DNA of 36,721 nucleotides from a virus, in IMG/VR virus record IMGVR_UViG_3300029908_000081, positions 1-36,721 of that record; one strand, given 5' to 3'. The notes below the pieces were generated by a model, which was given only the letters and a program-made list of their open reading frames with translations, did not search any database and had not been told where the DNA came from. Positions 1 to 35,614 of this stretch are shown here, piece by piece. Position numbers and translations under genes: made by a program. The stretch's first letter is position 1. The number at the start of each line of letters is the position of its first letter.

Positions 1-316
1 TTTTAACAGAGTCATCAGGTAATTCGTTCGCTTCCTTGATGATCGTTTCTTCATTAAAGAGGGTAGTTTCTGGATGAACAAAGGGATTTACCGCATTGAT
101 AGTAAATGATTTTTGAGTAGTCGTGTTAAATTCATTTATAGGAATGCTTCCATTATTACCAAAATATTGGTCGGTAATGACTTGCACTAATGAATTGAAT
201 GTATACAAATCATTACGCACATGGGTTCCGCCCCCGAAACCACCAATGATATCCGATGGTGCGGAGGAAGAAGCTCTAGACGCTGCCGTTTTATATTGAA
301 ATAAGGTAGTAGCCAT
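1..316 (-). CDS. Partial structural protein, N-terminal 105 residues
   Basis: An open frame runs from an ATG at 316 to the left edge without a stop, so the C-terminus is missing. The visible part starts MATTLFQYKTAASRASSS, followed by a Gly-rich turn (residues 25-30, GGFGGG). It has no signal peptide or membrane segment that I can see and I do not recognise the family. It lies directly downstream of the spike gene on the same strand, and an exact T4-type late box (TATAAATA) ends 6 bases before the ATG, so a late virion or baseplate role is likely by context. No Shine-Dalgarno sequence precedes the ATG; if the promoter is real the mRNA is essentially leaderless. Confidence 0.75.
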   Translation of the reverse strand, partial: MATTLFQYKTAASRASSSAPSDIIGGFGGGTHVRNDLYTFNSLVQVITDQYFGNNGSIPINEFNTTTQKSFTINAVNPFVHPETTLFNEETIIKEANELPDDSVK

Positions 317-322
317 GAAAGA

Positions 323-330
323 TATTTATA
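323..330 (-). promoter_or_regulatory. T4-type late promoter box TATAAATA
   Basis: Exact TATAAATA on the minus strand in the 27-base gap between the spike gene and the next minus-strand gene. The T4 late consensus is TATAAATA around -10, recognised by gp55-type sigma, and a gp55-like gene is present at 6692. Only 6 bases (tctttc) separate the box from the ATG at 316, which puts the predicted start of transcription at the start codon. Confidence 0.6.
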
Positions 331-343
331 ACCTTGTTTTTTA

Positions 344-2470
344 TCAATTGGAGATAGTATAAAATTGTGAACCGCCCTCTGGACCAGCTTTCGAAAATGG
401 TATAGTTCTAATTGTAGCAGGAACATAGACTGATTGATCTAATACTTGTATACCATTAGCATCTTGTCCCAGATATATTGCGGCATGTGAAGAGCCGTAG
501 GTGTTAGTGTAATCACCGTTAGAATTAAAGGTAGCGATAGCTGTACCCGGCTGTATGCTTTGATTACCCATAACTTGGTCACCTTGTGTCCAGCTTGAAG
601 TGGGACCCACGGGAGCGAGCGCTTTTACCAAGCTCACACATTGATCAGAACCCGGATCAGTTGACGCATTAATCCACCCAGTTTTAGAATTATCTATTGC
701 TTGTTGTGCAGAATCAGCGGAGTTAACAGTAGAGGATTGTATATAATTACTATTACTCGCACCACCATCACTGGTAGAGGGGGTAGTAGATGGCGCTGCT
801 TGTGTTGCCGAAGAATTAGCACCCGCCGCTGTTGAACCATTTCCAGTTCCTTGTTGTTGTGGAGCGACTCCACCATTAGTACCCGGTGTCACGGAATTAT
901 TAGGAGAATTTGGGTCTGGTTGGTGCTGTGGGACGCGCGATGGTAACATTTTACTTTTTTGGTTTGGAGGATTCCCTTGTAAAATATCAGTTTTGGCAGG
1001 AGCATTTGATTTTTCAGAAACTTTTTTAAATTTGGCAAAAGTTGGCGCGCTCGGCGCGGCTGGCTCAACGGAAGAACCACAATTCAATAATATACTTCCA
1101 GTGGTATCAACAGCAAATGTTGAAGCTTGGATAGATACCATATCTGATTTTAAAGCAACTCGTGTTTTAGTGGTAATATCATAATTTTGTTTTGAGCTTA
1201 TAGCACCATTCTTCATAAGAAGATTATAATTACCTTTAACTTCTTTTTTATCATCACCTAAAACATTGACATTAGAAGCTTGTGCATAAACTGCACTATA
1301 GTCACCATTGACAGCAACATTATAATCTTTATTAGATGTTAAATTAATACCATTTGCTAACAAGTTTAATTCTTTACCAGCCTGAAAATTAACATCACCA
1401 TCAGAAGAAAAGTTCAAGTCATTTTCCGTGTGAATGCTCATACCAGCTTTTCCATATATTTCAAGTTTACCTTGACTATCCATCGAGATATATGTTTTAC
1501 CATTACCTGTTTGTAAATGTATAAATGGGTTGGCGGCACTATCATTTATAACTAATCCGGCATTATGCCCAGACTTTAAAATAACGCCAGAACTATCTGG
1601 ACTATCGTCCATAGTAAGGTGGTGACCATTATTAATATGTCTTCTAACGTTAGACCCACGATTTTTCCATTGCTGCCCAGTTGCGTCCTTATTATTCTGA
1701 TCGCGAGAATAATTCCACCCATTTGATTTTTGCCCGCGAACAAGAGAAGGGAATTCCCGTTTAGCATGAGCGCCCATCCCGCCACGATGAATATCTTTAG
1801 CAGTTCCTGATTTAATAATATGGTTCGCATGAGGGACGTTAATACCGCGTTTTGTACCTCCCGGATCGTCTTTCGACGGACGTTTCTCGGTGTATGGCAA
1901 ACACGCATCTGATGATGTTTTATCAGTAAAAGGACTTTTAGCCTTTCCGGTTAAGGTGGATTTAGCTGCGCTTCCTCCGTGAGGAACAGTTACGCCTGCC
2001 CCCGGTGGAGGAACTGCCCCAGTTATAACACCTTTACGGGGATCGCCCCCAGTAAACACCACACTTACCACATGTCCATTTCTGGGCGCGGCACCAATAT
2101 CACCAGAGCGTACGGTTTCGCCACTATGTGAATCTCTACCATCAATACTTTGACCGGTATTATGGCTATCGTCACCACCACTAGCTTGTCCTATCGTGAC
2201 AGGATGCCATCCGGGTCTATTTGCTTGTTGTGGTGACCCATCGGATGTTTGGCGATCAGGGGCGGTTCCTTGAAAAGTAAAAATTTTAGTAGGGTCAGTG
2301 ACTAATGCCGAAAGTGCTGGAATATAAACCCAAACCTGTTCACGACTATCGTCTACTACATAACCCATATGGACGCCATGAAAGGAATTTTTAGTTGCAT
2401 TTCCGGCAACTTTGCCATAAAAATGGTCGTGTCCTTTTTCGGAATACCCGTCTGTTCTAAATTCACTCAT
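344..2470 (-). CDS. gp5-like baseplate central spike with C-terminal peptidoglycan amidase domain
   Basis: Predicted trimeric membrane-piercing spike at the centre of the baseplate, 708 residues. Residues about 1-150 look like the OB-fold of gp5-type spikes (NRPGWHPVTIGQASGG, then RNGHVVSVVFTGGDPRKG). Residues about 290-480 are a beta-prism or helix region with repeated short strands (LKSGHNAGLVINDS, then many N/D-rich repeats). A Pro/Gln/Ser/Thr-rich linker follows. The last ~125 residues resemble the BPSL0067/CHAP-like amidase family: Cys611 in DQCVSLVKAL, then GTAIATF, His662 in SHAAIYLG, and VLDQ. T4 gp5 instead carries an internal lysozyme domain; here the hydrolase is at the C-terminus. 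It begins 10 bases after the hub gene, so the two are co-transcribed. The fold calls are from motif memory; the Cys/His order is seen directly. Confidence 0.85.
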   Translation of the reverse strand: MSEFRTDGYSEKGHDHFYGKVAGNATKNSFHGVHMGYVVDDSREQVWVYIPALSALVTDPTKIFTFQGTAPDRQTSDGSPQQANRPGWHPVTIGQASGGDDSHNTGQSIDGRDSHSGETVRSGDIGAAPRNGHVVSVVFTGGDPRKGVITGAVPPPGAGVTVPHGGSAAKSTLTGKAKSPFTDKTSSDACLPYTEKRPSKDDPGGTKRGINVPHANHIIKSGTAKDIHRGGMGAHAKREFPSLVRGQKSNGWNYSRDQNNKDATGQQWKNRGSNVRRHINNGHHLTMDDSPDSSGVILKSGHNAGLVINDSAANPFIHLQTGNGKTYISMDSQGKLEIYGKAGMSIHTENDLNFSSDGDVNFQAGKELNLLANGINLTSNKDYNVAVNGDYSAVYAQASNVNVLGDDKKEVKGNYNLLMKNGAISSKQNYDITTKTRVALKSDMVSIQASTFAVDTTGSILLNCGSSVEPAAPSAPTFAKFKKVSEKSNAPAKTDILQGNPPNQKSKMLPSRVPQHQPDPNSPNNSVTPGTNGGVAPQQQGTGNGSTAAGANSSATQAAPSTTPSTSDGGASNSNYIQSSTVNSADSAQQAIDNSKTGWINASTDPGSDQCVSLVKALAPVGPTSSWTQGDQVMGNQSIQPGTAIATFNSNGDYTNTYGSSHAAIYLGQDANGIQVLDQSVYVPATIRTIPFSKAGPEGGSQFYTISN

Positions 2471-6672: not shown

Positions 6673-6692
6673 TTAATAAAGGGATTTATTAA
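6673..6692 (+). promoter_or_regulatory. Start-site stem-loop with ribosome site in the loop
   Basis: TTAATAAA (6673-6680), loop GGGA (6681-6684), TTTATTAA (6685-6692): eight perfect pairs, all A/T. The loop is the only Shine-Dalgarno-like sequence for the gp55-like gene, and the 3' arm ends on the A of its ATG. The stem would shorten the effective distance between ribosome site and start. The all-A/T stem is weak. Confidence 0.4.
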
Positions 6693-7207
6693 TGATTAAA
6701 TTAAAAAGTAAAGATTATTTAAAAAATGAATTTTTGTTAAAAGAGATATCTAAGAGTAAGGAAAACGTTAAAAATTATCCAGAACGATTACTCTCGGAAT
6801 GTTTAACTCCCGGCTTAGTCAATTCAATAGTGTTGTTAACTGAAAAGTATGCACAAAAGTTTAATTGGCGTGGGTATTCTTGGATTGAGGATATGAAAGC
6901 AGACGCCGTTGCGTCTTTATGCCAGATCGCTTTAAAATTTGACGAAACAAAATCAATTAATCCTTTCGGTTATTATACCCAGTGTATCACTCGTAGTTTT
7001 GTTAACTATATCAATAATGAGAAAAAGCAATCGAGAATTAAAGACGACTTGATTGAATTCTCGGTTGGTGATATGGAACCATCATGGACCCGCCAAAATG
7101 AAGAGAATGATGCTCATTTGGACGGAACGAAAAGAATACCGTCCGACCCATTGATCCGCCGTCGAAATAAGAAAAGAGAGCGGATAGAATATTTGCCCAA
7201 AATTTAA
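6692..7207 (+). CDS. gp55-like late-transcription sigma factor
   Basis: A 171-residue protein resembling T4 gp55, the small sigma that directs host RNA polymerase to late promoters. The diagnostic part is a region-2-like segment: SWIEDMKADAVASLCQIALK, FDETKSINPFGYYTQCITRS and FVNYINNEKKQSRIKDDLIE (residues about 68-128). There is no region 4 helix-turn-helix, as expected for gp55, which reads only the -10 box. The C-terminus is basic (IRRRNKKRERIEYLPKI), whereas T4 gp55 ends in a sliding-clamp-binding motif; I cannot say whether this tail does the same. It is followed by the gp47/gp46 pair, a T4-like grouping. TATAAATA-type boxes before virion genes in this window support its function. Confidence 0.9.
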   Translation: MIKLKSKDYLKNEFLLKEISKSKENVKNYPERLLSECLTPGLVNSIVLLTEKYAQKFNWRGYSWIEDMKADAVASLCQIALKFDETKSINPFGYYTQCITRSFVNYINNEKKQSRIKDDLIEFSVGDMEPSWTRQNEENDAHLDGTKRIPSDPLIRRRNKKRERIEYLPKI

Positions 7208-7235: not shown

Positions 7236-7265
7236 ATTTCCCATATATGAATCGATATGGGAAAT
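7236..7265 (+). promoter_or_regulatory. Inverted repeat enclosing the start codon of the gp47-like gene
   Basis: Arms ATTTCCCATAT (7236-7246) and ATATGGGAAAT (7255-7265) are perfectly complementary (11 pairs) with an 8-base loop ATGAATCG. The start codon ATG (7257-7259) is inside the 3' arm and no Shine-Dalgarno sequence precedes it. In an RNA starting upstream the start codon would be paired, so initiation is probably weak or regulated. An ATG in the loop (7247) is out of frame and followed by only a few codons. Confidence 0.55.
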
Positions 7266-24403: not shown

Positions 24404-24404
24404 T

Positions 24405-24412: not shown

Positions 24413-24431
24413 TAGAATAGGAAATATTTAA

Positions 24432-25031
24432 ATGAAATTTATGGATAATACCGGAATCTATATGGAAGGTCATGTTAAGATTAAAGAATTCTTAACAATG
24501 GAAGACCGTGAATTAGATAACCCGTGCCGGATTCTTCTTGACAAACGCAATAGTGTTAATCCCGAAAATCTTTCAATAGTTATTGCGCGAGGCTTGTCTA
24601 ATCAAAATAATGGAAGCATTTATAGTATGGCTTTTGGTACAGGAGGTGCCACTATAGATAACGCTGGAAATATTCAATATGCTACTCCTAATACATTGGG
24701 TAATGCTTCTTTAAATAATCAGGTTTATTTTAAAGTGGTTAATGATAATAGTGCATTGACTAATAACAACATTATCATTATCCGACACATAAATGGAGTG
24801 TCATTCTCGGATGTGGAAATACACTGTGTTCTTGGAAAAAACGAGCCTTATGGTCAAATAGCGACAGATAGTACTGGACCAACGTCAACATCAACCCAAT
24901 TTACTTTTAATGAAATTGGTCTTAAAAGTGCAGATGGGTTGTTATTGACTCATATAACATTCAATCCCATACTCAAATCGAGTAACAGAATTTTTGAAGT
25001 TGTTTACACCATTCGTTGTAATGTGAATTAA
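24432..25031 (+). CDS. Baseplate or fibre-attachment structural protein, unidentified
   Basis: A 199-residue protein I do not recognise. It has no membrane segment or signal peptide. The composition (Asn/Thr/Ser-rich, few Lys and Arg after residue 60) and alternating hydrophobic pattern suggest a beta-rich virion protein. The N-terminus is more charged (GHVKIKEFLTMEDRELDNPC). It sits between the giant baseplate gene and fibre-like genes, where T4 has gp8 to gp11, so a connector between baseplate rim and fibres is plausible by position only. Ribosome site AGGAAA precedes the ATG. The next gene starts 10 bases after the stop, so they are co-transcribed. Confidence 0.7.
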   Translation: MKFMDNTGIYMEGHVKIKEFLTMEDRELDNPCRILLDKRNSVNPENLSIVIARGLSNQNNGSIYSMAFGTGGATIDNAGNIQYATPNTLGNASLNNQVYFKVVNDNSALTNNNIIIIRHINGVSFSDVEIHCVLGKNEPYGQIATDSTGPTSTSTQFTFNEIGLKSADGLLLTHITFNPILKSSNRIFEVVYTIRCNVN

Positions 25032-25041
25032 AGGATATAAA

Positions 25042-25692
25042 ATGAGTTTCCCATATATTATTGATAACACCGCAGGACAAACCGTCGCTACAATCACACC
25101 AGCTACAAATACCGGCGCAACTTTCCCGATAACGATGTACGGATATGGCTGGTCGCCGTGGTCACCTGTATTATTACAAAATGATTATCAGCTTATGGAA
25201 AATTTTGCAAGTGCGACACCTCCTACTAATCCGGTTCCGGGAATGTGGAATTTTTCAACCACTACGAAAGAAATGTATTTTAACGACTCGGTAACTTGGC
25301 AACAAGTTGTTACCGCGAGTAATAGCATTTCCGCTGGTTTTAATATGGATGTTGCTGCGATAAATATTGATTTTACTCAAACTGGATCAACAGTTATATT
25401 TACCTATCCTAATGATGGTAAAAAATATCATCCTGTTAGTATTATGTTGATACCAACCACAACACCGACAAACACTCTCCCACCCACATTTAATTTGAAT
25501 GTACATGATTTGGACGATGTTATGGAAAATGTAAGTATCATCAATCCTAATGTTAATTCCCACACGATATTTCCGATAGAAGGAACCACTAGATTTTTAT
25601 ACACTGCTGGGGATCAATTGAAATTAAATATAACAACCCCTGCAAATAATACTTTAAATATGCAGGTGTTAATTTTCGGTCTTATAAACTAA
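25042..25692 (+). CDS. Tail fibre or fibre-adaptor-like structural protein
   Basis: A 216-residue protein. Residues about 30-95 (MYGYGWSPWSPVLLQNDYQL, then MENFASATPPTNPVPGMWNF, then MYFNDSVTWQQV) follow the pattern of phage fibre N-terminal modules of the form PPxNPVPGQLWYDxxxxxxxxxxGTxW, which occur at baseplate-attachment ends. The rest is beta-rich with no known motif to me. It is translated from ribosome site AAAGGA, 6 bases before the ATG, and is followed by a strong hairpin terminator whose 5' arm begins at the last base of the stop codon. Confidence 0.7.
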   Translation: MSFPYIIDNTAGQTVATITPATNTGATFPITMYGYGWSPWSPVLLQNDYQLMENFASATPPTNPVPGMWNFSTTTKEMYFNDSVTWQQVVTASNSISAGFNMDVAAINIDFTQTGSTVIFTYPNDGKKYHPVSIMLIPTTTPTNTLPPTFNLNVHDLDDVMENVSIINPNVNSHTIFPIEGTTRFLYTAGDQLKLNITTPANNTLNMQVLIFGLIN

Positions 25693-25729
25693 AAGTGCGT
25701 TCATACCCACTCAGGTATGAACGCACTTT
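25692..25729. terminator. Bidirectional hairpin terminator between convergent genes
   Basis: Perfect 16-bp stem AAAGTGCGTTCATACC (25692-25707) with GGTATGAACGCACTTT (25714-25729), 6-base loop CACTCA. The loop holds the stop codon of the minus-strand 64-residue gene (25711-25713), so one arm is coding. T-rich DNA flanks both sides, though neither run is long. Confidence 0.85.
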
Positions 25730-25905
25730 GTCTTTCTGCGCATTTGTTCTCTGAAAAATTTACCCGTGTATTCACAAGTTTCTCTACTTTGGAAACCGCT
25801 GATAGATTCAAACGTAACAGTATGAGGTGGCATCGCGTATGGATTTTCCGTTGGAAATTGCAATGGCAACGTTGATGTTGCAATAATTATTAATATCCAA
25901 GTCAT
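25711..25905 (-). CDS. Small exported or membrane-anchored protein, 64 residues
   Basis: A short minus-strand gene set between two plus-strand tail genes. It is supported by a strong ribosome site (AAGGAG, 8 bases before the ATG), by its own terminator, and by near-complete filling of the gap. The N-terminus is hydrophobic (MTWILIIIATSTLPLQF), a possible signal peptide or anchor. Two cysteines (in RETCEYTGKFF and RRKTKCVHT) could form a disulfide outside the cytoplasm. I recall small phage proteins of this shape (MTWxLI start, Cys and basic tail) but know no function. The overlapping 60-residue frame at 25701-25883 lacks a ribosome site. A function in the host envelope is a guess. Confidence 0.7.
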   Translation of the reverse strand: MTWILIIIATSTLPLQFPTENPYAMPPHTVTFESISGFQSRETCEYTGKFFREQMRRKTKCVHT

Positions 25906-25939
25906 ATAAAATTCTCCTTCCTTATAAAGTATGCAATTT

Positions 25940-25947
25940 TATAAATA
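25940..25947 (+). promoter_or_regulatory. T4-type late promoter box TATAAATA
   Basis: Exact match to the T4 late box, 20 bases before the ATG at 25968, with ribosome site TAGGAA between. It would start a transcript for the tail fibre gene. It abuts a minus-strand TAAATA box; the joint sequence TAAATATATTTA (25942-25953) is a perfect palindrome. Confidence 0.7.
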
Positions 25948-25955
25948 TATTTAGT
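25948..25955 (-). promoter_or_regulatory. Possible divergent late-type box ACTAAATA
   Basis: On the minus strand ACTAAATA lies back to back with the plus-strand TATAAATA. It is 42 bases before the ATG of the 64-residue gene, which has its own ribosome site. It may be real or a by-product of the palindrome. Confidence 0.3.
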
Positions 25956-25967
25956 AGGAAATAAATA

Positions 25968-27533
25968 ATGGGATCGTTCATACCTCAAGGATTAAATACG
26001 TCAACCGGACAATATGGAGTTAATATTGACCCTGTAACCGGATTGCCTTTGGCAGCAGTAGTAGAAGTATTAAACGTATTACCTAGCACAACAGATGCTG
26101 CAAATTTTAGCGGTAGGACAATTTATGTTCCGTCAGCATCAGCGCTGTATGTCTTTAATAAGAATATAAATAATTGGTTAGTTTTAAATGGCACGAGTGT
26201 TATTATTGGGGCAGTTAATGGTTCTCCACCAACTACACCAACTCCTAGTGCAGGACAATTATATTTTGATACTGATACACAGGTGGTATTTTTATGGAAT
26301 GGTGTTATATGGTTGGCGATTGGCGGGGCGCTTGCAGCGGCTATTAAAACACAAGTTTATACTTCTGGCGGCACAGTATTTGCACTTGGTCAAACACAGC
26401 CCATTAGTAATGACTATGTAGAATTATTTTTAGATGGTATCAGACAAACTCCATCTTCTGATTATAACATCACTGGAAATACATTAATTACTACATCCAC
26501 GGTTCCTGTGGGTGTTACTGTATTGATTAGGGTTATGCAAACTGCCCCATTAGTACAAAATTCTCAAGTTTATTCAACTAGTGTTGTTGTTAATTATCCA
26601 ACCACCCCAAATACCACTTTTCCTTTGAGTGCGGTTGGCGTTGATCCTGCCTCGGTATTGGTATTCGTTAACGGGTCATTAAAAACATTATCTACAGATT
26701 ATTCAATTGTATCACAAAACACTTCGATTATATCCATTTTACAAATTGGAACAAGTGGAACATCTATTATTTTTAGAGCAACGACTTCTGTTCCTCATGG
26801 ACTGATTAATGGAAATCAAACAATGATTGTGGGGGGCATTACCCCGTTTAATAATAATGTTGTTACGATTACTAATGTGTCTTCTTCAGTAACTTTTGAT
26901 TTTATATTATCAACAATGGTGACAAGCGCCACCCCTTCACCGGCATTATATTTTTATCCGCCTACTCAATCTGATGCTATTGTGTTTACTAGCGCATTAA
27001 GTAATGGTAATAAATTTATTGCGAAATATTTTAAGTCGGTTGTTCCGGGTGGAAATGTTGGTGAGATTAATATCTTGCAAAGCACCGGAAGTGGTATTTC
27101 GCTCAATGCCGGTAAAACTGGAGCCTCACTATTGGTTAAATCATTAGTTCAAGGAACTAATGTGTCATTAATAGATAGTGGTACTAGTATTCAAATAAAT
27201 GCCGAACTAAACAGTGGGTATCTTAACCGGGTTGGGATAAATGTAAATTATTATACACCGAGTTCAAATACCGATTATGTCGGAGTAGCTAATACAACAT
27301 CTCAGGTTATTATTGATTTATCAAGTATTATTACTGGTTCGCCAGTTTCTTCTGGACGAACCCTAACAATCAAGGATGAAAGCGGCGGCGCTGGCACTAA
27401 TAATATAGTAATTAATTTTGGTGCTAATGTACATCTCGATGGGCTTAGTTCTTATAGTATCACCCAAAATTATGGATATGTTAAATTAATAACTGACGGA
27501 TACAATTGGTTTAAAATTGGCGATGGTAATTAA
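25968..27533 (+). CDS. Tail fibre protein with repeated beta modules
   Basis: A 521-residue virion protein. The N-terminal ~115 residues are fibre-like (VPSASALYVFNKNINNWLVL, then TPSAGQLYFDTDTQVVFLWN). The middle has at least two modules of the type seen in the gp6-like and giant proteins: FLDGIRQTPSSDYNITGNTL near 151-170 and VFVNGSLKTLSTDYSIVSQN near 229-248. Near 365 there is a beta stretch (LQSTGSGISLNAGKTGASLL) and the C-terminus ends with INFGANVHLDGLSSYSITQN, then YNWFKIGDGN, a form common at the ends of fibre proteins. It probably acts in adsorption; no lysis or lyase motif is seen. Late box and good ribosome site precede it. Confidence 0.75.
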   Translation: MGSFIPQGLNTSTGQYGVNIDPVTGLPLAAVVEVLNVLPSTTDAANFSGRTIYVPSASALYVFNKNINNWLVLNGTSVIIGAVNGSPPTTPTPSAGQLYFDTDTQVVFLWNGVIWLAIGGALAAAIKTQVYTSGGTVFALGQTQPISNDYVELFLDGIRQTPSSDYNITGNTLITTSTVPVGVTVLIRVMQTAPLVQNSQVYSTSVVVNYPTTPNTTFPLSAVGVDPASVLVFVNGSLKTLSTDYSIVSQNTSIISILQIGTSGTSIIFRATTSVPHGLINGNQTMIVGGITPFNNNVVTITNVSSSVTFDFILSTMVTSATPSPALYFYPPTQSDAIVFTSALSNGNKFIAKYFKSVVPGGNVGEINILQSTGSGISLNAGKTGASLLVKSLVQGTNVSLIDSGTSIQINAELNSGYLNRVGINVNYYTPSSNTDYVGVANTTSQVIIDLSSIITGSPVSSGRTLTIKDESGGAGTNNIVINFGANVHLDGLSSYSITQNYGYVKLITDGYNWFKIGDGN

Positions 27534-27534
27534 T

Positions 27535-27542
27535 AATAAATA
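27535..27542 (+). promoter_or_regulatory. Late-type promoter box AATAAATA
   Basis: AATAAATA two bases after the fibre stop, 17 bases before the ATG at 27560, with ribosome site AAGGAAA between. Same core and spacing as the boxes at 24405, 25940 and 28805. Confidence 0.5.
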
Positions 27543-27559
27543 GATATAAGGAAATTAAT

Positions 27560-28795
27560 ATGACGACTCGCGCATCTGGCTCTGTTTTAAACTTAACCAA
27601 CCCAACCATCACCGATATTAAAATAGTTGGTCCAAATTCTTATATTGATAATACCGTTATTGGTAGCACTGTTCCAAATTCAGGAACCTTTTCAAGCAAT
27701 AATATTACGGGCGCTGCTGGCACTGTTAGAGGAACAGTAATGTCAACGATAGTGTATTCTGCTAATCTTGCTAGATGGAGTGTTTGTGCTAATTCCGATG
27801 CAGAAACCGGTTCAAATACCGGGTCTAATTTCATTTTATCGCGATACAATGATGCTGGTGTTTTTATTGATAACCCATTAACTATTAATAGAGCAACCGG
27901 AATTGTTAACTTTTCTAACCCCCCGACTGTAGCGGGGGGTCCTTATCTTCAAACTATTACTCTTGTTTTCCCGCCGCAGACGACATATTACGTGGACTTT
28001 AATGCTGGTAGTGATCTTACTGGGGACGGACTGACATCTAGCACCCCTTGGAGAAGCTTACAACATGCAATTAATACTGTTTCGAGCCGTTATGTCTATT
28101 CTGGTTTAATAACTATCCAATGTGCCAATGGTACATATACATGTGCGCCAGAGGAGATGGCTTGTGAAATTGGTCCCTCCCAAATCGCTGAGTGGAAAAT
28201 CACCGGTAATCCCACAAATCCGTCCTATTGTTATATTGATGCATCTGCCGTCGGCGCGCGGGGATTTTCATCAACACATGGTTTCGTGTTGATTGATGGA
28301 TTTCAGGTAAAAGTCTACTATGAAGCTTACGTTGCCAACACTGGATCATTAGTGATAGTATCAAATTGTAATGCTATCGGAACACAACCCCTTCAATCGG
28401 CAGCTTTTGTAGCGTATGCTAACGGGCAATTGTGTTTGCAGGGCGTTGATGGCGGAACTGTCCTTTCAACACTTACCATGTCAGGAAGTTTTTTGTGCGG
28501 GATTCTTGCTTCTGAAGCAGGATTTGTCCAAGTTGGATGGAATGATGTTTCCGTCGCGAGTCCTGTTAACTTTGTACTTTCATCACCTTCTTTTACAACG
28601 GCATTTGCTCAAGCGCAATCAAATGGTTTTATTGCTTTTCAACCGGGGATGGTCTCATTCTATGGTGCAGCTACAGGACCAAAATTTTTTGTTTCGTCGA
28701 ATGGGGTTGTGGGTACTAATGGACAATCGACGGGCTATTTGCCGGGAAGTGTTACCCCGGTAGGACCATGGTCCACTGGCGGTCAATATGTTTAA
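27560..28795 (+). CDS. Tailspike-like protein with right-handed beta-helix domain
   Basis: A 411-residue protein. Residues 1-~125 are an attachment-type region. At about 139 begins a motif typical of parallel beta-helix proteins of the DUF1565 or pectate-lyase-like type: YYVDFNAGSDLTGDGLTSST, then PWRSLQHAINTV. Short alternating strands follow to the end (ITIQCANGTYTC, GFVLIDGFQVKVY, GSLVIVSNCNA), and the C-terminus STGYLPGSVTPVGPWSTGGQ is a common last segment of such spikes. The likely role is binding or cleaving a host surface glycan; I cannot identify catalytic residues. Seven or more cysteines are unusual next to the Cys-poor neighbours. It lies between the fibre and an assembly-like gene. 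Confidence 0.8.
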   Translation: MTTRASGSVLNLTNPTITDIKIVGPNSYIDNTVIGSTVPNSGTFSSNNITGAAGTVRGTVMSTIVYSANLARWSVCANSDAETGSNTGSNFILSRYNDAGVFIDNPLTINRATGIVNFSNPPTVAGGPYLQTITLVFPPQTTYYVDFNAGSDLTGDGLTSSTPWRSLQHAINTVSSRYVYSGLITIQCANGTYTCAPEEMACEIGPSQIAEWKITGNPTNPSYCYIDASAVGARGFSSTHGFVLIDGFQVKVYYEAYVANTGSLVIVSNCNAIGTQPLQSAAFVAYANGQLCLQGVDGGTVLSTLTMSGSFLCGILASEAGFVQVGWNDVSVASPVNFVLSSPSFTTAFAQAQSNGFIAFQPGMVSFYGAATGPKFFVSSNGVVGTNGQSTGYLPGSVTPVGPWSTGGQYV

Positions 28796-28804
28796 AAATA
28801 TGGA

Positions 28805-28812
28805 TTTAAATA
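28805..28812 (+). promoter_or_regulatory. Late-type promoter box TTTAAATA
   Basis: TTTAAATA 19 bases before the ATG at 28832, ribosome site AAAAAGGA between. It matches the T4 box at seven of eight positions. Confidence 0.45.
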
Positions 28813-28831
28813 GAAATAAAAAGGACGATAA

Positions 28832-29425
28832 ATGAGAACACCTACTAACATTTACACACCCCTCGCGTGGTATTGGAAAGGTCCAATTGGCATATTTTCG
28901 TCAGCAGATATGAGGTTAGTACCTGAAACTGATGCTAATTATCAAGCATTTCTTAGTGCCAGAGGGGGAGTATCACCATGGCCCACGGACAGTAATGGTG
29001 AGCAAACCATTGCGGCGCTTGATGGAGTGCTTGCCCAATACGGGCTTTCGACGGGATTGGCGATTGCTACTCTATCACAACTTCAAGATTATGCAGGTAG
29101 TAAAGTTTTATCTCTTTTGTCTGCAATGAGACTTTATACAGTGGATGGTGCAACGATTAAATCAGACAGTACTGTTGGAACTATTACCCACTTACTCGCT
29201 TTATCAACGTGGGGACAAAGCAATCCGACTGCTACTGACAATTGGATTGCTAACGATTGGAGCAGCACTCCTGTTACTGGGGCACAATTTGTAGCGTTAG
29301 CGCCACTTGTAGGGGCTTATGCGCAATTGATTTATGGCACCGAACTTAACATGGTATTGGCACAAATTACCGCAGGAACAATCACTACTACCGCCCAAAT
29401 CGATAGTTTCGCGTGGACCTTGTGA
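28832..29425 (+). CDS. Tail fibre assembly-like protein
   Basis: A 197-residue protein following the fibre and spike genes, the usual place of fibre chaperones. The N-terminal part fits fibre-assembly-type proteins: VPETDANYQAFLSARGGVSP, WPTDSNGEQTIAALDGVLAQ, then YGLSTGLAIATLSQLQDYAG with the K of SKVLSLL. The order 'vP.tdanYqaFla.Gg.p..P...g..T..ald.vL..yGL' and the following LQDYA..K helix recall DUF4376-like proteins. The C-terminal half is helical and Ala-rich. It is probably needed to fold or attach the spike or fibre; it could instead be a virion subunit. It shares the late-box arrangement of its neighbours. Confidence 0.65.
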   Translation: MRTPTNIYTPLAWYWKGPIGIFSSADMRLVPETDANYQAFLSARGGVSPWPTDSNGEQTIAALDGVLAQYGLSTGLAIATLSQLQDYAGSKVLSLLSAMRLYTVDGATIKSDSTVGTITHLLALSTWGQSNPTATDNWIANDWSSTPVTGAQFVALAPLVGAYAQLIYGTELNMVLAQITAGTITTTAQIDSFAWTL

Positions 29426-29432
29426 TTTTTAA

Positions 29433-29461
29433 TTGACATCAGATAGAATTTGACATACAAT
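29433..29461 (+). promoter_or_regulatory. Strong host sigma-70-type promoter
   Basis: TTGACA (29433-29438), 17-base spacer, TACAAT (29456-29461). The -35 is the perfect consensus and the -10 matches five of six, with ideal spacing. The -10 box ends 6 bases before the ATG at 29468, so transcription should begin at the start codon. No ribosome site exists upstream of the ATG. Confidence 0.75.
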
Positions 29462-29467
29462 AGTAAT

Positions 29468-30763
29468 ATGTCAAATTCTATCATTATTTCACAGGGAAAT
29501 TGTTTAATTTTAATGATTGGTCCATCCGGCTCTGGTAAATCTACCATGGCGGCTGATTTATTTTATCCATTTGAGATAATTTCTCCCGACAATTTACGTC
29601 TTGAACTCACTTACGATTTTAAAAGACAGGACAAAAACGAGGAAGTGTTCATAGAGGTGCGCCGACGCCTTGAAACGCGCCTTAAATTAGGATTGCGCGC
29701 AATGATTGATGCAACTAATTTAAGTTTTAAAGAGCGTAAGCCGTTTGTAGAGTTGGCAAACCAATTCAATTGCGACATATTTTATATCGTTGTCAACCGT
29801 CCTCTTATAGAAAAAGAGGCTACGGCGGGTTGGCGTGAAAATGTTATGAACGAGAATGGGGTCAGTCTTATAGTGAGGCATGAAGAAAAGTTTGTTAATA
29901 ATGAGGTTAACATTCTGAATGGTGATAATATTGCGGGTATTAGAGTGATTGATACCCGTGTTGATGCAGTAAAGGCGATTGATATGAAAAAGTACCACCC
30001 GGATTACACCGAATTGCTAAAAGAGTATAACACCGTTCGTATTATCGCGGACGTTCATGGTAACATTGATGGTCTTAATCAGGTATTGGACGCGCCGGAA
30101 GGAACGTTCTTTATCTTTTTAGGAGATATTGTTGACTACGGTGATAATATCATTGAGTGTCTCGATAAGGTTTATGATTTGGTTAATCGTGGTCGCGCAC
30201 TGTCTGTGCGTGGCAACCATGAGAAGAAGATTGCAGTTCTTATCAAATATCATAAAGAACATGGTGATTTTGGTAAGAAGCAAGTGTCTACCGGAGTTAA
30301 AGCAACTTTTGACCAAGTATGGACATTGGATAAAGACGCTTCTGATCGGTGGTTCTCAAATGCTCTGGCGTTTGAGAATCTTTGCCCTGACTATATCAGG
30401 TTTGCAAACGTCCTGTTAACGCATGGCGCTTGTCATCCTGATATGTGGAAAAACAATAGTTTTAGATTGTTTCAGGGATCGAAAGCTGAAAGCTTCGCTA
30501 TGTATGGTCAAACTACCGGTGAATTTATCGACGGATATCCTGTTAGAATCTATGATTGGGTTGATCTTATTCCGCCTGATCACAAAGTTATCGTTGGACA
30601 TGATATTCGTAGCAAGGAAGCTCCTTTAACTTATAAAGGAGCGCTCGGTGGCGAAGTCACTTTTCTTGATACCGGTAGCTCGAAAGGCGGAAAGTTAAGC
30701 TGGATTGATGGTTTTATTGATGAATCGAATAAATTTGTTGTGAAGGGTATGGAAAGCGTTTAA
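29468..30763 (+). CDS. Polynucleotide kinase / calcineurin-like phosphatase (bacterial Pnkp-type end-healing enzyme without ligase)
   Basis: A 431-residue bifunctional nucleic-acid repair protein. The N-terminal kinase has Walker A GPSGSGKST (18-26), SPDNLR (39-44) and DATNLSF (81-87), the set of 5' polynucleotide kinases. The C-terminal metallophosphoesterase has Asp195 and His197 in IADVHGN, GDIVDYG (219-225), RGNHEK (248-253), THGACHP (318-324), VGHDIR (376-381) and FLDTG (399-403). Kinase plus calcineurin-type phosphatase is the arrangement of bacterial Pnkp; T4 Pnkp instead uses a HAD phosphatase. It would heal RNA or DNA ends (3' phosphate removed, 5' OH phosphorylated). A TTG frame start at 29450 lies inside the promoter, so ATG 29468 is preferred. 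No ligase gene is visible in the window. Confidence 0.88.
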   Translation: MSNSIIISQGNCLILMIGPSGSGKSTMAADLFYPFEIISPDNLRLELTYDFKRQDKNEEVFIEVRRRLETRLKLGLRAMIDATNLSFKERKPFVELANQFNCDIFYIVVNRPLIEKEATAGWRENVMNENGVSLIVRHEEKFVNNEVNILNGDNIAGIRVIDTRVDAVKAIDMKKYHPDYTELLKEYNTVRIIADVHGNIDGLNQVLDAPEGTFFIFLGDIVDYGDNIIECLDKVYDLVNRGRALSVRGNHEKKIAVLIKYHKEHGDFGKKQVSTGVKATFDQVWTLDKDASDRWFSNALAFENLCPDYIRFANVLLTHGACHPDMWKNNSFRLFQGSKAESFAMYGQTTGEFIDGYPVRIYDWVDLIPPDHKVIVGHDIRSKEAPLTYKGALGGEVTFLDTGSSKGGKLSWIDGFIDESNKFVVKGMESV

Positions 30764-30769
30764 ACCGGG

Positions 30770-30801
30770 TTTTAATTTATATAAATATATATAAATTAAA
30801 A
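30770..30801 (+). promoter_or_regulatory. Inverted repeat overlapping a late promoter
   Basis: TTTTAATTTATAT (30770-30782) and ATATAAATTAAAA (30789-30801) pair perfectly (13 bp, all A/T), loop AAATAT. The TATAAATA box spans arm and loop, so RNA started there lacks the 5' arm, like the arrangement at 16058-16103. The stem is weak in A/T only, and simple low complexity could explain it. Confidence 0.45.
30780..30787 (+). promoter_or_regulatory. T4-type late promoter box TATAAATA
   Basis: Exact T4 late box, 29 bases before the ATG at 30817, with ribosome site AAAAAGGA between. It suggests late expression of the small DNA-binding-like protein. Confidence 0.6.
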
Positions 30802-30816
30802 TAAAAAGGAATTTAA

Positions 30817-31119
30817 ATGGCGTACTCATATGCAACAGAAAGAAAGATTAAGGCTATAGAACAACATCATGGCGAAGACTGGAAAACTGTAATAGGTGAT
30901 CTGAGCATTGATGCGGCATACAATCTTTTGGTTAATGATAACCGTAAGCATTTGTATTGCCGCATCTCTTCAGATACTAAAAAACAGTTAGATGAAATGA
31001 CAGATAGTTATGGTGTAAAAATTGCACATTTTATAGAAGTCTTGGTTGAAAAAGAATATAAAAATTTCAAAGATAAGAAACAAAAAGAAATGTCTAACAT
31101 GCTCGAACAATTTACTTAA
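30817..31119 (+). CDS. Small protein with ribbon-helix-helix-like C-terminal half
   Basis: A 100-residue protein. Residues about 47-85 fit a ribbon-helix-helix fold: a strand (LYCRISS), a helix (DTKKQLDEMTDSYG) and a second helix (KIAHFIEVLVEKEYKNF), the Arc/MetJ plan of DNA-binding dimers. The first 45 residues are a separate helical part (KIKAIEQHHGEDWKTVIGDL). The C-terminus is charged and likely exposed. It might be a transcription regulator, sitting just upstream of the MoxR/VWA pair. The fold call comes from pattern only; sequence identity to a known family is not claimed. Start is supported by ribosome site AAAAAGGA 7 bases upstream. Confidence 0.65.
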   Translation: MAYSYATERKIKAIEQHHGEDWKTVIGDLSIDAAYNLLVNDNRKHLYCRISSDTKKQLDEMTDSYGVKIAHFIEVLVEKEYKNFKDKKQKEMSNMLEQFT

Positions 31120-31175
31120 AAGAGATTATGTATTTGGGATTGTGGTAAAAAAAGATGGTTATGGAATAATGGTAG

Positions 31176-31203
31176 TTGACTTAGTTATATAAAGCGTGAT
31201 ACT
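31176..31203 (+). promoter_or_regulatory. Host sigma-70-type promoter of the MoxR/VWA genes
   Basis: TTGACT (31176-31181), 16-base spacer, GATACT (31198-31203). The -35 matches five of six and the -10 four of six. It is the only candidate in the 106-base gap, and no TAAATA box is present there, in contrast to the virion genes. Confidence 0.45.
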
Positions 31204-31218
31204 CTATTTTTAATAGAG
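31202..31218 (+). promoter_or_regulatory. Leader hairpin overlapping the ribosome site of the MoxR gene
   Basis: CTCTATT (31202-31208), loop TTT, AATAGAG (31212-31218): seven perfect pairs. The ribosome site AGAGGA (31215-31220) is partly inside the 3' arm, 5 bases before ATG 31226. The predicted RNA start, about 31209-31210, may exclude the 5' arm, so only RNA from further upstream would be affected. Confidence 0.4.
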
Positions 31219-31225
31219 GATCACA

Positions 31226-31450
31226 ATGGTAAAAAAGACTCCCACTGAGAAAGAACAATCAAAAACTACAGTTTCTCCTTCTGAATTATTACAAATTATT
31301 GATTATATTTGCTCCCCATACGATAAAGCGGATCGGAAGTTTAAAAAAAGCGCCGCCGTAATGATTTGGGGTAAGCCCGGCATTGGAAAAACGGATATTG
31401 TTAAAACGTATGCAGCCGCACGTGGTAGACGGTTGGTTGCCTCAATTTGA
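31226..31450 (+). CDS. MoxR-like AAA+ ATPase, N-terminal fragment before a frameshift
   Basis: The first 74 codons of a MoxR-type ATPase. It carries the Walker A loop (MIWGKPGIGKTDIVK, GKPGIGKT at 49-56) and the following helix TYAAARGRRLV, then stops at TGA 31448-31450. The rest of the ATPase continues in the +1 frame without a new start or ribosome site. The ribosome site AGAGGA and the upstream promoter look intact. MoxR ATPases act as chaperone-like remodelers, usually with a VWA protein, and one follows here. Whether the break is a mutation, an assembly error or a programmed frameshift is open (see the next entry). Confidence 0.8.
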   Translation: MVKKTPTEKEQSKTTVSPSELLQIIDYICSPYDKADRKFKKSAAVMIWGKPGIGKTDIVKTYAAARGRRLVASI

Positions 31451-32669
31451 CCCGGTTGATATTAAAGGCATTCCGATAAGATTTCCCGATGGTACCGTAA
31501 AATGGGTGCCCTCATCATACTTGCCGCAAATGCGTACTGTATTGGTTAATGCGAATAATATCAAACATGAAATTAAATTACCTTGGAAATATGCAGAAGA
31601 TTTACAAATCTTGGTGTACAACGAAGCCAATGAATTGGTTTTTTCCGAAAATGATGGAGACGTGCCGAATTTTGACACGGCTGAATTTTCAGCTAATGTG
31701 CATTGGGAATATAATGGTGAGGAATGGGTAGTCTCGGTATTAGTGAAAAACGAATTACCTGAACACAAAACCTATAGAGTTGTCATAGCTGATAAAGCTG
31801 TGATATTCTTGGATGAATTGAGCGCCGCTGATCCCGCTACGCAAAACGCAGCGCTTCAATTAGTGTTAGATAAACGCATCAATGAATATGAAGTTCCTTA
31901 TAATGTTCCTATGATCGGTGCTGGTAACGGTGAAGGTGATGGCGCGTTTGTTCAAGGAATGTCGTTACCATTAGCAAACCGCTTCGGTCATTTCACTTTA
32001 GTCGAAGACCTTGAGGATTGGTTGGCTTGGGCTATGTATGCTGGAATCTCTCCTGCTATATGGGGTTATATAAAATGGCGTGGTAAAAGCGCTCTTATGG
32101 ACTTTAATCCAGAAACTATCACTAATGAAGAATACGGGTTCCGAACCCCTCGCTCTTGGGCGTCTTTCTCGGCACAGTTGATGTCAGGTAAAAAAGGCGA
32201 AGGATTGCGTAGTCTGCCTGATAATTGTGTTAACGCGGTTGCTACAGGATTTATTGGAAGGATAGGAGCTACTGAATTTAAGGCATACTTAGACACCCAC
32301 GATTTACTTCCTGATACCGATGATGTTTTAGATGGTAAAATCATAGAAATTGATGAAAAAGTAAGAAAGAGTCACATGTGGGGATTTGTTGTTGCGCTTG
32401 GGCAAAAACTCAAAGATAGGTATGACAAATATTATGATAAAACCAAGGGCGCTAAAGGACAATGTAAAGAATGGAATGATACTGCTGCCAATGTGATTTA
32501 TTTTATAAATCATGGTTTGGAAGGCGATATCGCAAGTTTTTTTCTATATCTAGTCACGGTAGTTTATGAAATAAGAGCGGCAACTTTTAATCAAGCAAAT
32601 CCTCCAGAATTTGACCGGTTCACTGATCGATATGGGCTTGTTTTCGCGAGGGCGGTAAAGGCACGATAA
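31431..32669 (+). CDS. MoxR-like AAA+ ATPase, main part in the +1 frame
   Basis: The +1 frame is open from 31383, but family-like sequence begins near 31431: WLPQFDPVDIKGIPIRFPDG (in MoxR proteins this follows the Walker A helix by about ten residues). Later come Walker B AVIFLDELSAADPATQNA, QLVLDKRINEYEVP, sensor 1 MIGAGNGEGDG and an arginine-finger-type PLANRFGHF, then a helical lid and C-terminus to about residue 428 of the frame. No credible start lies near the beginning; the first ATG is at 31530. With the N-terminal fragment it would make a protein of about 481 residues. GGTTGGTTG (31431-31439) at the junction is a short direct repeat, a likely deletion point. The stop is one base before the VWA gene. 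Confidence 0.8.
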   Translation, partial: GWLPQFDPVDIKGIPIRFPDGTVKWVPSSYLPQMRTVLVNANNIKHEIKLPWKYAEDLQILVYNEANELVFSENDGDVPNFDTAEFSANVHWEYNGEEWVVSVLVKNELPEHKTYRVVIADKAVIFLDELSAADPATQNAALQLVLDKRINEYEVPYNVPMIGAGNGEGDGAFVQGMSLPLANRFGHFTLVEDLEDWLAWAMYAGISPAIWGYIKWRGKSALMDFNPETITNEEYGFRTPRSWASFSAQLMSGKKGEGLRSLPDNCVNAVATGFIGRIGATEFKAYLDTHDLLPDTDDVLDGKIIEIDEKVRKSHMWGFVVALGQKLKDRYDKYYDKTKGAKGQCKEWNDTAANVIYFINHGLEGDIASFFLYLVTVVYEIRAATFNQANPPEFDRFTDRYGLVFARAVKAR

Positions 32670-32670
32670 T

Positions 32671-34068
32671 ATGAGTGATTTCGACGATCATCCTTTAGTA
32701 AAAAGATATAATAGGGATACTTATTATGACGAGGAAGCATATAAAAAATTAATAAGTGCTAAGGTTGAGTTGATGACAACTTTTCCCTTTTGGGGAGTCA
32801 TTGCGTGTGATTTAGTATTGGTCGAAGAGATAGGGTTTAAAACTCCTATAGGAGACATTAACTTAGTGCCAACATTAGGCACCGATGGGCGACATATCAT
32901 TTATAATGCTAAATTTGTCAACTCTTTGAGAATTGGCGAGGTTACATTCGCTGTTGCGCATGAAATACGTCATTGTCTCGATGCCCATGTTGGAAAGAAT
33001 AACCGTCTTGGTGATAGGGACCCGAAATTATTTAATAAAGCTGGGGATTATTGTATTAATCAAGAACTAAAAGATGCTGATATTGGAGAATTTATTACCA
33101 CAATTAAAATATTGTATGATAAAAAATTTGATAAGATGTATACTGAAGAGGTATACGATATTATTGAAAAAGACCCAAAATACCAGAACGGTAATCCATT
33201 TGATGTTCATATCGGAGTTTCTTCTAAACAACCCGGTTCAGACAAAGGGGAAGTGATTCATAAAACAGATGATGTCACTATTATAAAGAATAGTGACGGA
33301 TCAATAACTGTTGTTAAATCTGGCGACGTTATAGATACTGAAAATTCTGAAATGGGTGATTTGATTAAACGTGCGGTAAATGCTCAGTACGAAGCGGAGA
33401 AAAAAGGTTATATTAAAAATAATGGTGCGAGCGCCATTCCCGGCGATGTTCTTAGATATTTTGAAAAGTTAAGTCAACCAAAAATTGATTGGCGCACTGC
33501 CCTCAAGAGATTTATTTTTACGGTCAGTAGTACGGGTTATTCCTTTTCATCCCCTAACAAAGCGTTGTTTAATTCTGGATTTACCTTACCGGGATTCCGC
33601 CGCCGCGATAAATGCTTGGAATTGGCGCTGGCATTTGATACCTCCGGGTCAGTGTCAAAGAAATTTAGTGAAACATTCTTATCTGAATTCATGGGAATTT
33701 TAAGTATAGTGCCGAAATTTAAAATTCACGTGTGGTGTTTTGATGGACATGTACATGAAGTATCTCATCATATATTAACGAAAACTTCTAATAAAAATAT
33801 TGCTACCATAGTTAAACCATTTTTCGAAAACTATGTTGGTGGTGGGGGAACAGTATTTGAATCTAATTGGCAATTCATGAAAGCAAAGAATATACATCCT
33901 AAGGCATTCCTTGTATTATCAGATGGTTACCCGTGTCAAGGATATGGAGATTCTAAATATTGCCCAACGTTATTTTTATTTGGTGTTAATGAAGGCGCGG
34001 ATGAAGAAAATTTCCCCAAAAAAGCCGATTTTGGGAAAACAATTTATGTAGAAGTATCAGCGGATTAA
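32671..34068 (+). CDS. VWA-domain protein with metallopeptidase-like N-terminus (MoxR partner)
   Basis: A 465-residue protein of the DUF2201/VWA-like type. The N-terminal part has HEIRH (97-101), fitting an HExxH zinc site, followed by AHVGKNNRLGDRDPKLFNKA and GDYCINQELKD, the usual 'A.D..iN..L' segment. The C-terminal VWA domain has a metal-dependent adhesion site: DTSGSVS (from about 323), a Gly-rich YVGGGGTVFES (about 389-399) and LSDGYP (about 417-422). MoxR ATPases and VWA proteins form paired systems, for example RavA/ViaA in E. coli, often inserting metals or remodeling complexes. The ATG follows the ATPase stop by one base, so they form one operon. The function in a phage is unknown to me. 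Its stop overlaps that of the convergent neighbour. Confidence 0.85.
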   Translation: MSDFDDHPLVKRYNRDTYYDEEAYKKLISAKVELMTTFPFWGVIACDLVLVEEIGFKTPIGDINLVPTLGTDGRHIIYNAKFVNSLRIGEVTFAVAHEIRHCLDAHVGKNNRLGDRDPKLFNKAGDYCINQELKDADIGEFITTIKILYDKKFDKMYTEEVYDIIEKDPKYQNGNPFDVHIGVSSKQPGSDKGEVIHKTDDVTIIKNSDGSITVVKSGDVIDTENSEMGDLIKRAVNAQYEAEKKGYIKNNGASAIPGDVLRYFEKLSQPKIDWRTALKRFIFTVSSTGYSFSSPNKALFNSGFTLPGFRRRDKCLELALAFDTSGSVSKKFSETFLSEFMGILSIVPKFKIHVWCFDGHVHEVSHHILTKTSNKNIATIVKPFFENYVGGGGTVFESNWQFMKAKNIHPKAFLVLSDGYPCQGYGDSKYCPTLFLFGVNEGADEENFPKKADFGKTIYVEVSAD

Positions 34069-34082
34069 CACCGTCCGCTGAT
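34056..34082. terminator. Hairpin at overlapping convergent stop codons
   Basis: ATCAGCGGA (34056-34064) pairs perfectly with TCCGCTGAT (34074-34082), 9-base loop TTAACACCG. The loop starts with TTAA, which contains the stops of both convergent genes (plus 34066-34068, minus 34065-34067). No T-run follows on either side, so termination is less certain than for the other hairpins. Confidence 0.5.
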
Positions 34083-35249
34083 GGAATTATCTGGGGTGCG
34101 ACTTTCTCCGGTTTGGGTTGGTTGAGTGGTTTGACCACCAACAACAGAGCCGGGGACAGCCCCGCTTATGGAAGTTTGTGTATCAACAAATGGTTGTTCA
34201 TTTGTTAATGGTACTTTTATGAGTTGTGGCGAATCAAAACCAACAACCGGACCTAATGCTGCCGTTGTTGCTACATTCAATGGTGGCGCTTTACTACCAG
34301 TACTTGAATCAGGCACTAGTGAGGCTTGTAATAGATTTTGAATAGCCGTAGTTGTAGGAGTTGTTTGAACTCCTTGGGTATTATATGATACGCCAGAAAC
34401 TGGTGGCACGGTAGTTGTAGCTGGCGGATTGCTATCTACGAAAATATTTGCTAAAGCATTTTGTAATGCAGGAGTACCAACGGCACTCATTAAAGGAAGC
34501 GAACATGCGTTTAAAAAATTATTAGCAACGTTATGCGCAATTATGAAATTCATAGCGGTGTTCAATAAGGAGGCAAATCCCCCCAACTCAGATGTAATTT
34601 TACTTGTTATTTGACTTGCTACAGACGACATACCACTCATAGCAGCGGTAGCCTGTGACATTAACCCACTTATACCGGCAGTGAGCGCGCTGGCTCCTTT
34701 ACTTATTAATGACTGTGCGCCGCTTATTAGTGACCCTATTGCCCCCATTTGGGATGTTGCTCCACTTACCAACGACGCACCCGCCCCCAATAGAGAGCCA
34801 AAAAATTGACTTAGATTAGTACACCCTGCTGGTACAGGTAAGGCATTGAAACCATATAAGAAATTTTTAATTCCTGTTCCACTTAACATTTGTTGTAAAT
34901 TGTTCATCAGTCCCCCGGATAATATTGAGGAACCACCTCCTGATATTAAGGAATTGGTATGATCTAACAATGATCCCATACTTGAACCCATTGAAGATAA
35001 TGAACTTCCTAGTGAGCCTAATTGGGAAACCAAACTTGCACCATTTGATCCTAAGAGGGATGAAACATTACTGGATAATGAAGTTAAAGAAGATGATAAA
35101 TTTGGTATTTGTGCGGTCGCGCTCGTGATAGAGCTAGCCACTGGATTTGTGAAAAGAGCAGCACCAGAACTCATTAAATTACTAATTGTCGCAGCACCGG
35201 CTGTTGTTAAATTTGTTGGTAAAGTAGGAATTTGTAGTGCGTCAGTCAT
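34065..35249 (-). CDS. Ser/Gly/Ala-rich structural protein downstream of the PAAR gene
   Basis: A 394-residue low-complexity protein I cannot assign. Residues 1-~235 are rich in Ser, Gly, Ala and Leu in heptad-like repeats (SSLTSLSSNVSSLLGSNGAS, then SLVSQLGSLGSSLSSMGSSM), which could form long amphipathic helices as in tape-measure or tail-tip proteins. A middle stretch is more ordered (KNFLYGFNALPVPAGCTNLS). The C-terminal ~120 residues are Pro/Thr-rich and probably disordered. The gene follows the PAAR gene by 9 bases and so belongs to the same late operon; a tail-tip, hub or tip-associated role is inferred. There is no signal peptide. Length and composition alone do not distinguish it from a cargo or an internal protein. 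Confidence 0.65.
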   Translation of the reverse strand: MTDALQIPTLPTNLTTAGAATISNLMSSGAALFTNPVASSITSATAQIPNLSSSLTSLSSNVSSLLGSNGASLVSQLGSLGSSLSSMGSSMGSLLDHTNSLISGGGSSILSGGLMNNLQQMLSGTGIKNFLYGFNALPVPAGCTNLSQFFGSLLGAGASLVSGATSQMGAIGSLISGAQSLISKGASALTAGISGLMSQATAAMSGMSSVASQITSKITSELGGFASLLNTAMNFIIAHNVANNFLNACSLPLMSAVGTPALQNALANIFVDSNPPATTTVPPVSGVSYNTQGVQTTPTTTAIQNLLQASLVPDSSTGSKAPPLNVATTAALGPVVGFDSPQLIKVPLTNEQPFVDTQTSISGAVPGSVVGGQTTQPTQTGESRTPDNSISGRC

Positions 35250-35258
35250 ATGAATAAT

Positions 35259-35600
35259 TTACCCTATAAATAATTTTGATGAACCGCCGATACGAACGTG
35301 CAAACACGAATCCGTGTCGCCTTCTGCAACCACCGGTTTCCCCCCGATAAAAACTTTGGAACCGGCATTGCCAATGGTAGTCCATATATTTTGGTCATGG
35401 GCGGCGTCAGCCGCAGGAGGAAGACCGGGAAGACCTAGTTCAGCCCAACCGCCGTCAAGACCGCCCGCGTCATGTGTTGTGCCGAAGTCACCACTGGTAC
35501 TAACCAGTTTACTTTCTGAAAAAACTTTTGATTGATGAACAACGTTAATAACACCTTGTCCATTATTTTGGTCGCCCATAGTGTGTACACGTCTAGTCAT
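35259..35600 (-). CDS. PAAR-like spike tip protein
   Basis: A 113-residue protein that would cap the gp5-like spike and sharpen it for membrane piercing (T4 gp5.4 analogue). Signs are the Gly/Ser/Val-rich short-strand composition, an early GDQNNGQGVINV, the segment SGDFGTTHDAGG, and the C-terminal SKVFIGGKPVVAEGDTDSCL followed by HVRIGGSSKLFIG, the typical V-x-GKP-x-(A)-x-GD-x3-C-x4-GG pattern. ATG 35600 is preferred over ATG 35579 because an exact late box lies 6 bases before it and neither has a ribosome site. The zinc-binding residues probably include His44, Cys101 and His103. The gene is apart from the spike gene by 33 kb, unlike in many phages. Confidence 0.85.
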   Translation of the reverse strand: MTRRVHTMGDQNNGQGVINVVHQSKVFSESKLVSTSGDFGTTHDAGGLDGGWAELGLPGLPPAADAAHDQNIWTTIGNAGSKVFIGGKPVVAEGDTDSCLHVRIGGSSKLFIG

Positions 35601-35606
35601 AAAATA

Positions 35607-35614
35607 TATTTATA
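35607..35614 (-). promoter_or_regulatory. T4-type late promoter box TATAAATA
   Basis: Exact late box on the minus strand, 6 bases (tatttt) before the ATG at 35600, and directly downstream of the terminator of the HNH gene. The predicted start of transcription is at the ATG, so the mRNA should be leaderless. Confidence 0.7.

Follow-up and report, generated by a model that had tools for sequence, protein, structure and literature searches.

Leaderless mRNAs, which have a 5'-terminal AUG, no Shine-Dalgarno (SD) sequence and near-exclusive use of AUG as the start codon, are known from bacteria and phages. The cI mRNA that phage lambda makes from PRM is leaderless. In Sinorhizobium meliloti, 171 such mRNAs have been described (PMC3616915), and the AR9 paper does no more than remark on the frequent lack of leaders in phage transcripts. 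For T4-like phages, SD leaders are the basis on which gene expression is modelled. T4 late promoters, which depend on gp55, carry the box TATAAATA, spanning -13 to -6 (PMC1524935); with the box ending at -6, the first base transcribed is the sixth one downstream of it. In the related giant (jumbo) phage CBB the same late motif, ATAAATA, precedes structural genes, and the passages on this motif in that paper are silent on start-codon spacing and on leaderless genes (PMC5259590). RNA structure provides a further level of control in T4, where the starts of genes e, soc, 49 and I-TevI are hidden by a hairpin in long RNA and are open in RNA begun inside the hairpin (PMC3014915). Leaderless mRNA and T4-type promoters are thus both known, but a search of the available literature turned up neither their regular combination nor a leaderless late gene in a T4-like phage.

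The window analysed here is a linear viral record of 36.7 kb (36,721 nt), in which an earlier note had proposed leaderless mRNAs at four places. In this study we establish the spacing between promoter and start codon, its bimodality, the absence of SD sequences, the preference for AUG and the recurrence of all this across relatives. We conclude, with high though not complete confidence, that a minority of genes in this T4-like giant-phage lineage is expressed as leaderless or near-leaderless mRNAs; RNA 5' ends and translation are inferred, and host tolerance of leaderless mRNA is unknown. The window probably carries four predicted members of this class. Because RNA 5' ends are unavailable, the leaderless reading remains a prediction from DNA.

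Four box-adjacent starts in the window

The closest matches of the gp6 and gp25 proteins of the window are the giant T4-like phages Phosso, Atu_ph07, RaK2 and XacN1, with identities to named phages of roughly 33-41% (50-52% for gp25 in IMG/VR). At the nucleotide level, positions 24400-36721 have no relatives among named phages, and Rfam and tRNA scans of the window returned no matches. A gp55-like late sigma factor is encoded at 6692-7207 (plus; phrog_234, E 1.7e-29) and presumably reads the late boxes. Another phage sigma factor, which contains sigma70 regions 2 and 4, lies at 10233-11120 (minus; PF04542, PF04545), divergent from gp25. Separately, a phrog_1297 ATPase (31226-32669) is split over two frames, with 31226-31450 matching profile positions 16-54 and 31383-32669 positions 49-305; a frameshift, a sequencing error and a programmed event are the alternatives.

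Coordinates and spacing at the four places proved exactly as described, each box ending 5 or 6 bases before an ATG (a distance called the gap below). On the minus strand, TATAAATA (323-330), recognized from the sequence and by pattern scan, is followed by TCTTTC and the ATG at 316, a gap of 6. This start opens the N-terminal part of an unknown protein that runs off the window end (2-316, minus), predicted to be near-leaderless with a 1-nt leader; the protein has no PHROG or Pfam match and no close relative in viral contigs. On the plus strand, AATAAATA (11195-11202), supported by sequence and by the spacing at gp25 loci, is followed after TTAGA (gap 5) by the ATG at 11208 of a gp25-like baseplate wedge gene that is predicted to be leaderless (11208-11567; PF04965, E 4.9e-7; PHROG baseplate wedge). 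A further TATAAATA (35607-35614, minus) stands with TATTTT, a gap of 6, before the ATG at 35600 of a PAAR-like gene (35259-35600, minus; phrog_281, E 4.3e-6), for which a near-leaderless mRNA with a 1-nt leader is again predicted; its protein has no close relatives in viral contigs, and the PAAR promoter is separated from the HNH gene by a terminator-like hairpin (35619-35654). The fourth start follows a promoter of the host type, with a -35 element TTGACA (29433-29438, plus), 17 bases, a -10 element TACAAT (29456-29461), AGTAAT and the ATG at 29468, again a gap of 6. It is the sole 11/12 sigma70-type match within 24000-36721. The gene it precedes, predicted to be leaderless, encodes a polynucleotide kinase/calcineurin-like phosphatase (29468-30763, plus; PF13671, PF00149; phrog_246, phrog_505).

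The four sites had been said to lack an SD sequence, and no usable one lies between the predicted RNA start and the ATG at any of them. The anti-SD duplex energy is +1.6 kcal/mol at both 11208 and 35600 and -0.7 at 29468, and the value of -3.8 at 316 is due only to an AAGG that precedes the box and would not be part of the predicted mRNA. The companion claim, that genes with boxes 17-32 bases away have good SD sequences, holds for those with energies of -4.2 to -6.2 kcal/mol, which have late boxes 32 bases before the gp6-like ATG at 11609 (11570-11576), 20 bases before 25968 (25941-25947), 17 bases before 27560 (27536-27542) and 29 bases before 30817 (30781-30787), all on the plus strand; the exception is 16103, which has its box 21 bases upstream (16075-16081, plus) and a weaker energy of -3.1. 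An exception that was overlooked is a second ATAAATA abutting the ATG at 25968. Another is the HNH gene at 36368 (minus), which has a late box 11 bases before its annotated start and no SD sequence (36368-36386); its real start may be further in.

Promoter spacing in the relatives

Relatives were gathered via gp25, and the distance from ATAAATA to the next in-frame ATG was measured in eight T4-like records, namely the window, five IMG/VR contigs (G001, G003, G005, G006 and G008), Xanthomonas phage XacN1 and Stenotrophomonas phage CM1. Genes were called with a simple ORF finder, which may have misplaced a minority of starts. The gap was bimodal (n=175), with 42 boxes at 4-7 (27 at exactly 5, 7 at 6 and 4 at 7), only 6 at 8-13 and 118 at 16-38, such that boxes leaving a leader too short for an SD sequence were depleted. 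Median SD energy was +1.6 for the 42 near boxes versus -4.8 for the 118 far ones (p 1e-20), and the start codons at gap 5 were 27 ATG versus 2 GTG.

Sigma70-type promoters, called at 10 or more of 12 matches, divided likewise: 26 had gaps of 5-8 (14 at 6, 8 at 7), 9 had gaps of 9-17 and 109 had gaps of 18-40, and median SD energy was -0.9 near versus -5.4 far (p 1.6e-10). Permuted hexamers gave a mean of 2.1 and a maximum of 8 at gaps 5-8, and the comparison set described below had 4 of 125 sigma70-type promoters there. The near class came mostly from XacN1 (9), G003 (5) and CM1 (4); in both XacN1 and CM1 it included genes, related to each other, that carry the motif CYCEVCGDGS, reminiscent of the zinc-binding end of a DNA primase.

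Could AT-rich intergenic DNA simply place box-like words near ATGs by chance? Over the whole window ATAAATA shows no excess (16 found versus 24 expected), as such an explanation would have it. For the class, however, chance is refuted and can hardly be credited at all: 20 permuted heptamers of the same composition gave 0-2 occurrences at gap 5 against 27 for ATAAATA, the one that reached 12 at gaps 5-7 had no more than 2 at gap 5, and in G001, with 53% GC, permuted heptamers gave 0 at gaps 4-7. Any single window site could still be accidental. The TATAAATA-type box was also enriched before genes relative to 20 permuted words, and an unbiased scan of 6-mers by distance placed TAAATA at gap 5 in one of the top two ranks of the non-SD signals for G001, G003, G006 and G008; it was not first in XacN1, CM1 and G005, which have 8, 6 and 7 near-class boxes, respectively. 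The argument that a spacing common to two promoter classes speaks against chance is weak on four sites alone and strong across relatives, where both classes have a sharp near peak at the distance that would set +1 on the A of ATG or beside it, a depleted zone beyond, and no SD sequences at the near members.

A comparison set (T4, Syn9, PA5oct, Atu_ph07, G007 and G002) had no excess of late boxes at near gaps. The near peak was absent from Syn9, and in T4 all 25 late boxes stood 12 or more bases from a called gene start, so that all T4 late genes found have leaders. This contrast between sets is descriptive because they were sorted after the pattern counts had been seen; the sorting has no bearing on the permuted-word control or the per-genome scan.

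Individual genes keep the short gap to a varying extent. XacN1 and CM1 share it at orthologous pairs of 430/347, 275/282 and 108/114 aa and at a 530-aa protein. A terminase-like gene of G003 has gap 5, and several relatives differ. The PAAR relative in G001 has a gap of 16 with an SD sequence, so the spacing at the PAAR site is not conserved, and no relative of the 316 gene turned up; both sites consequently rest on the class and not on conservation of their own. The short gap recurs across the group, and the expectation that repeated leaderless starts would be unusual in a T4-like phage was not met: they are regular in this group, and the window is not an oddity.

The position of the near peak agrees with the inferred start of transcription. 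Of the 118 far-class boxes, 70 have an A as the sixth base downstream, and pyrimidine-purine steps peak at bases 5/6. With RNA starting at that sixth base, a box at gap 5 makes the A of the ATG the first transcribed base. The -10 element of sigma70 promoters ends at -7, so that gap 6 does the same for that class. An ATG stands at gap 5 in only 1 of the 118 far-class leaders, so initiation does not favour ATG. Near-class gaps of 6-7 may give leaders of 1-2 nt. In the mechanism we propose, the -10 element (the late box via the gp55-like sigma, or the sigma70-type -10) would position RNA polymerase to start on the A of the start codon where the gap is 5 (late promoters) or 6 (sigma70 promoters), or otherwise 1-2 bases upstream; the 5'-terminal AUG would be bound directly by ribosomes, with no SD sequence involved, and farther promoters of both classes would yield ordinary SD leaders.

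The gp25 locus and the hairpin at 29468

At gp25, TAAATA stands at exactly gap 5 in 36 of 67 non-redundant loci and at gaps 4-6 in 39 of 67; permuted hexamers gave 0-4 at gaps 4-7. More than half of these loci belong to one tight clade. On the gp25 tree, built from few columns, the short-gap label is nonetheless scattered and needs 8 changes, at least 4 of them forced by well-supported branches. Within the clade that holds the window, the gp25 relatives either have an SD-led start or lack a box, so the nearest sampled kin of the window do not have a leaderless gp25. In the large clade L027-L083, GGTAAATAGGTGT or close variants precede the gp25 ATG, with a late-box variant (GGTAAATA) at gap 5.

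A further concern is that the ATG at +1 might not be the working start, translation beginning at a later, SD-preceded codon. The gp25 locus of G001 (L095; 56,742-56,756, minus) offers an instance, in which the gap-5 ATG opens a three-codon ORF (ATG AAG AGG TAG) ahead of an SD-led start. As a general account we hold this to be very improbable: stray ATGs at gap 5 are as rare as the far-class leaders indicate, deposited XacN1 starts were the box-adjacent ATG in both of the two cases checked, and the alignment of gp25 homologs begins at the +1 Met. Relatives of gp25 with 50-52% identity to the window protein align from the Met at 11208, which makes the start codons credible.

The kinase start at 29468 has a feature that the earlier note overlooked, a perfect inverted repeat (29442-29482, plus) with 16-nt arms (29442-29457 and 29467-29482) and a 9-nt loop. 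The -10 element lies partly in the 5' arm and partly in the loop, and RNA is predicted to start at base 2 of the 3' arm; the local fold of 29400-29520 (121 nt) has an energy of -32 kcal/mol (z -5). With the AUG in the stem and the 5' arm upstream of the local start site, the geometry is that of a hairpin gate. Read-through RNA from upstream genes would bury the AUG in the stem, while RNA begun at the local promoter could not form the hairpin, which would leave the AUG free. By eye and without folding, the full-length relatives of the kinase gene in G001 and Atu_ph07 showed no comparable 16-bp stem, so conservation of the hairpin is not shown.

At this site only, the palindrome may be the operator at which a dimeric repressor blocks the promoter, and not an RNA switch, a serious possibility that falls somewhat short of probable. 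The dyad overlaps the -10 element, and the leaderless class overall has no enrichment of hairpins over the ATG; however, a perfect 16-bp stem exceeds the length that most operators need, and only one base of the 3' arm precedes the predicted RNA start, as in the hairpin-gated genes of T4 (PMC3014915). The operator and RNA-hairpin readings are mutually compatible.

The stem also bears on whether the boxes matter for these genes at all. The mRNAs could be longer, made by read-through or from distant promoters and translated independently of SD sequences at AU-rich sites, the box being incidental or serving downstream genes. Several of the genes do follow a co-directional gene (316 starts 27 bases after 344-2470), and starts with neither box nor SD occur in the window, as at 7257. 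Yet longer RNAs do not predict a peak at 5 for late and 6-7 for sigma70 promoters, nor the depletion beyond; gp25 at 11208 has no co-directional gene directly upstream because its neighbour is divergent; and the 29468 AUG would sit in a 16-bp stem of the read-through RNA. We regard longer RNAs as improbable, and leaderless mRNAs remain the best-supported, if still predicted, reading of the four sites.

A general coupling of leaderless starts to hairpins was considered and is not supported, since the class has no enrichment over the ATG. Among box-led genes overall, stems crossing the start site were in modest excess (29 of 172 versus 113 of 1236 controls), alike in the eight records and the comparison set. 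Three other repeats were observed in the window. A hairpin with 25-nt arms (16049-16112) holds the late box of the 2766-aa structural gene 16103 in its loop, has the predicted start at the edge of the 3' arm and covers the ATG, resembling the control of T4 genes e and 49. An 11-bp perfect inverted repeat (7236-7265) lies over the ATG at 7257 of an SbcD-like gene, and a 14-bp one (30770-30801) surrounds the late box of gene 30817.

Relation to known systems and consequences for T4-like phages

The window group shares with T4 the late box and an inferred start at the sixth base after the box, with a gp55-like sigma factor encoded in the window, and differs from it in having near boxes. Bacterial leaderless mRNAs and lambda cI are alike in the features predicted for the window group, namely the 5'-terminal AUG, the lack of an SD sequence and the near-exclusive AUG; the difference is that here they would form a recurring class in T4-like phages, served by both phage late and sigma70-type promoters. 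The T4 hairpin-gated genes, whose starts are hidden in long RNA, are closely matched by 16103, whereas 29468 has a sigma70-type promoter and a predicted local transcript without any leader.

The leaderless set may be used in both infection phases, so that some phage mRNAs would take a different route of ribosome entry, possibly one favoured by late-infection ribosomes, and at 29468 the choice of start site may also switch translation through the hairpin; this is a tentative suggestion, which we are more inclined to doubt than to accept. A repeated leaderless class, if true, bears on start-site annotation, as for gp25 in many phages, and XacN1 and CM1 are cultured phages in which phage leaderless translation can be studied. 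If the class is real, a single T4 late promoter element can fix both the start of transcription and the start of translation.
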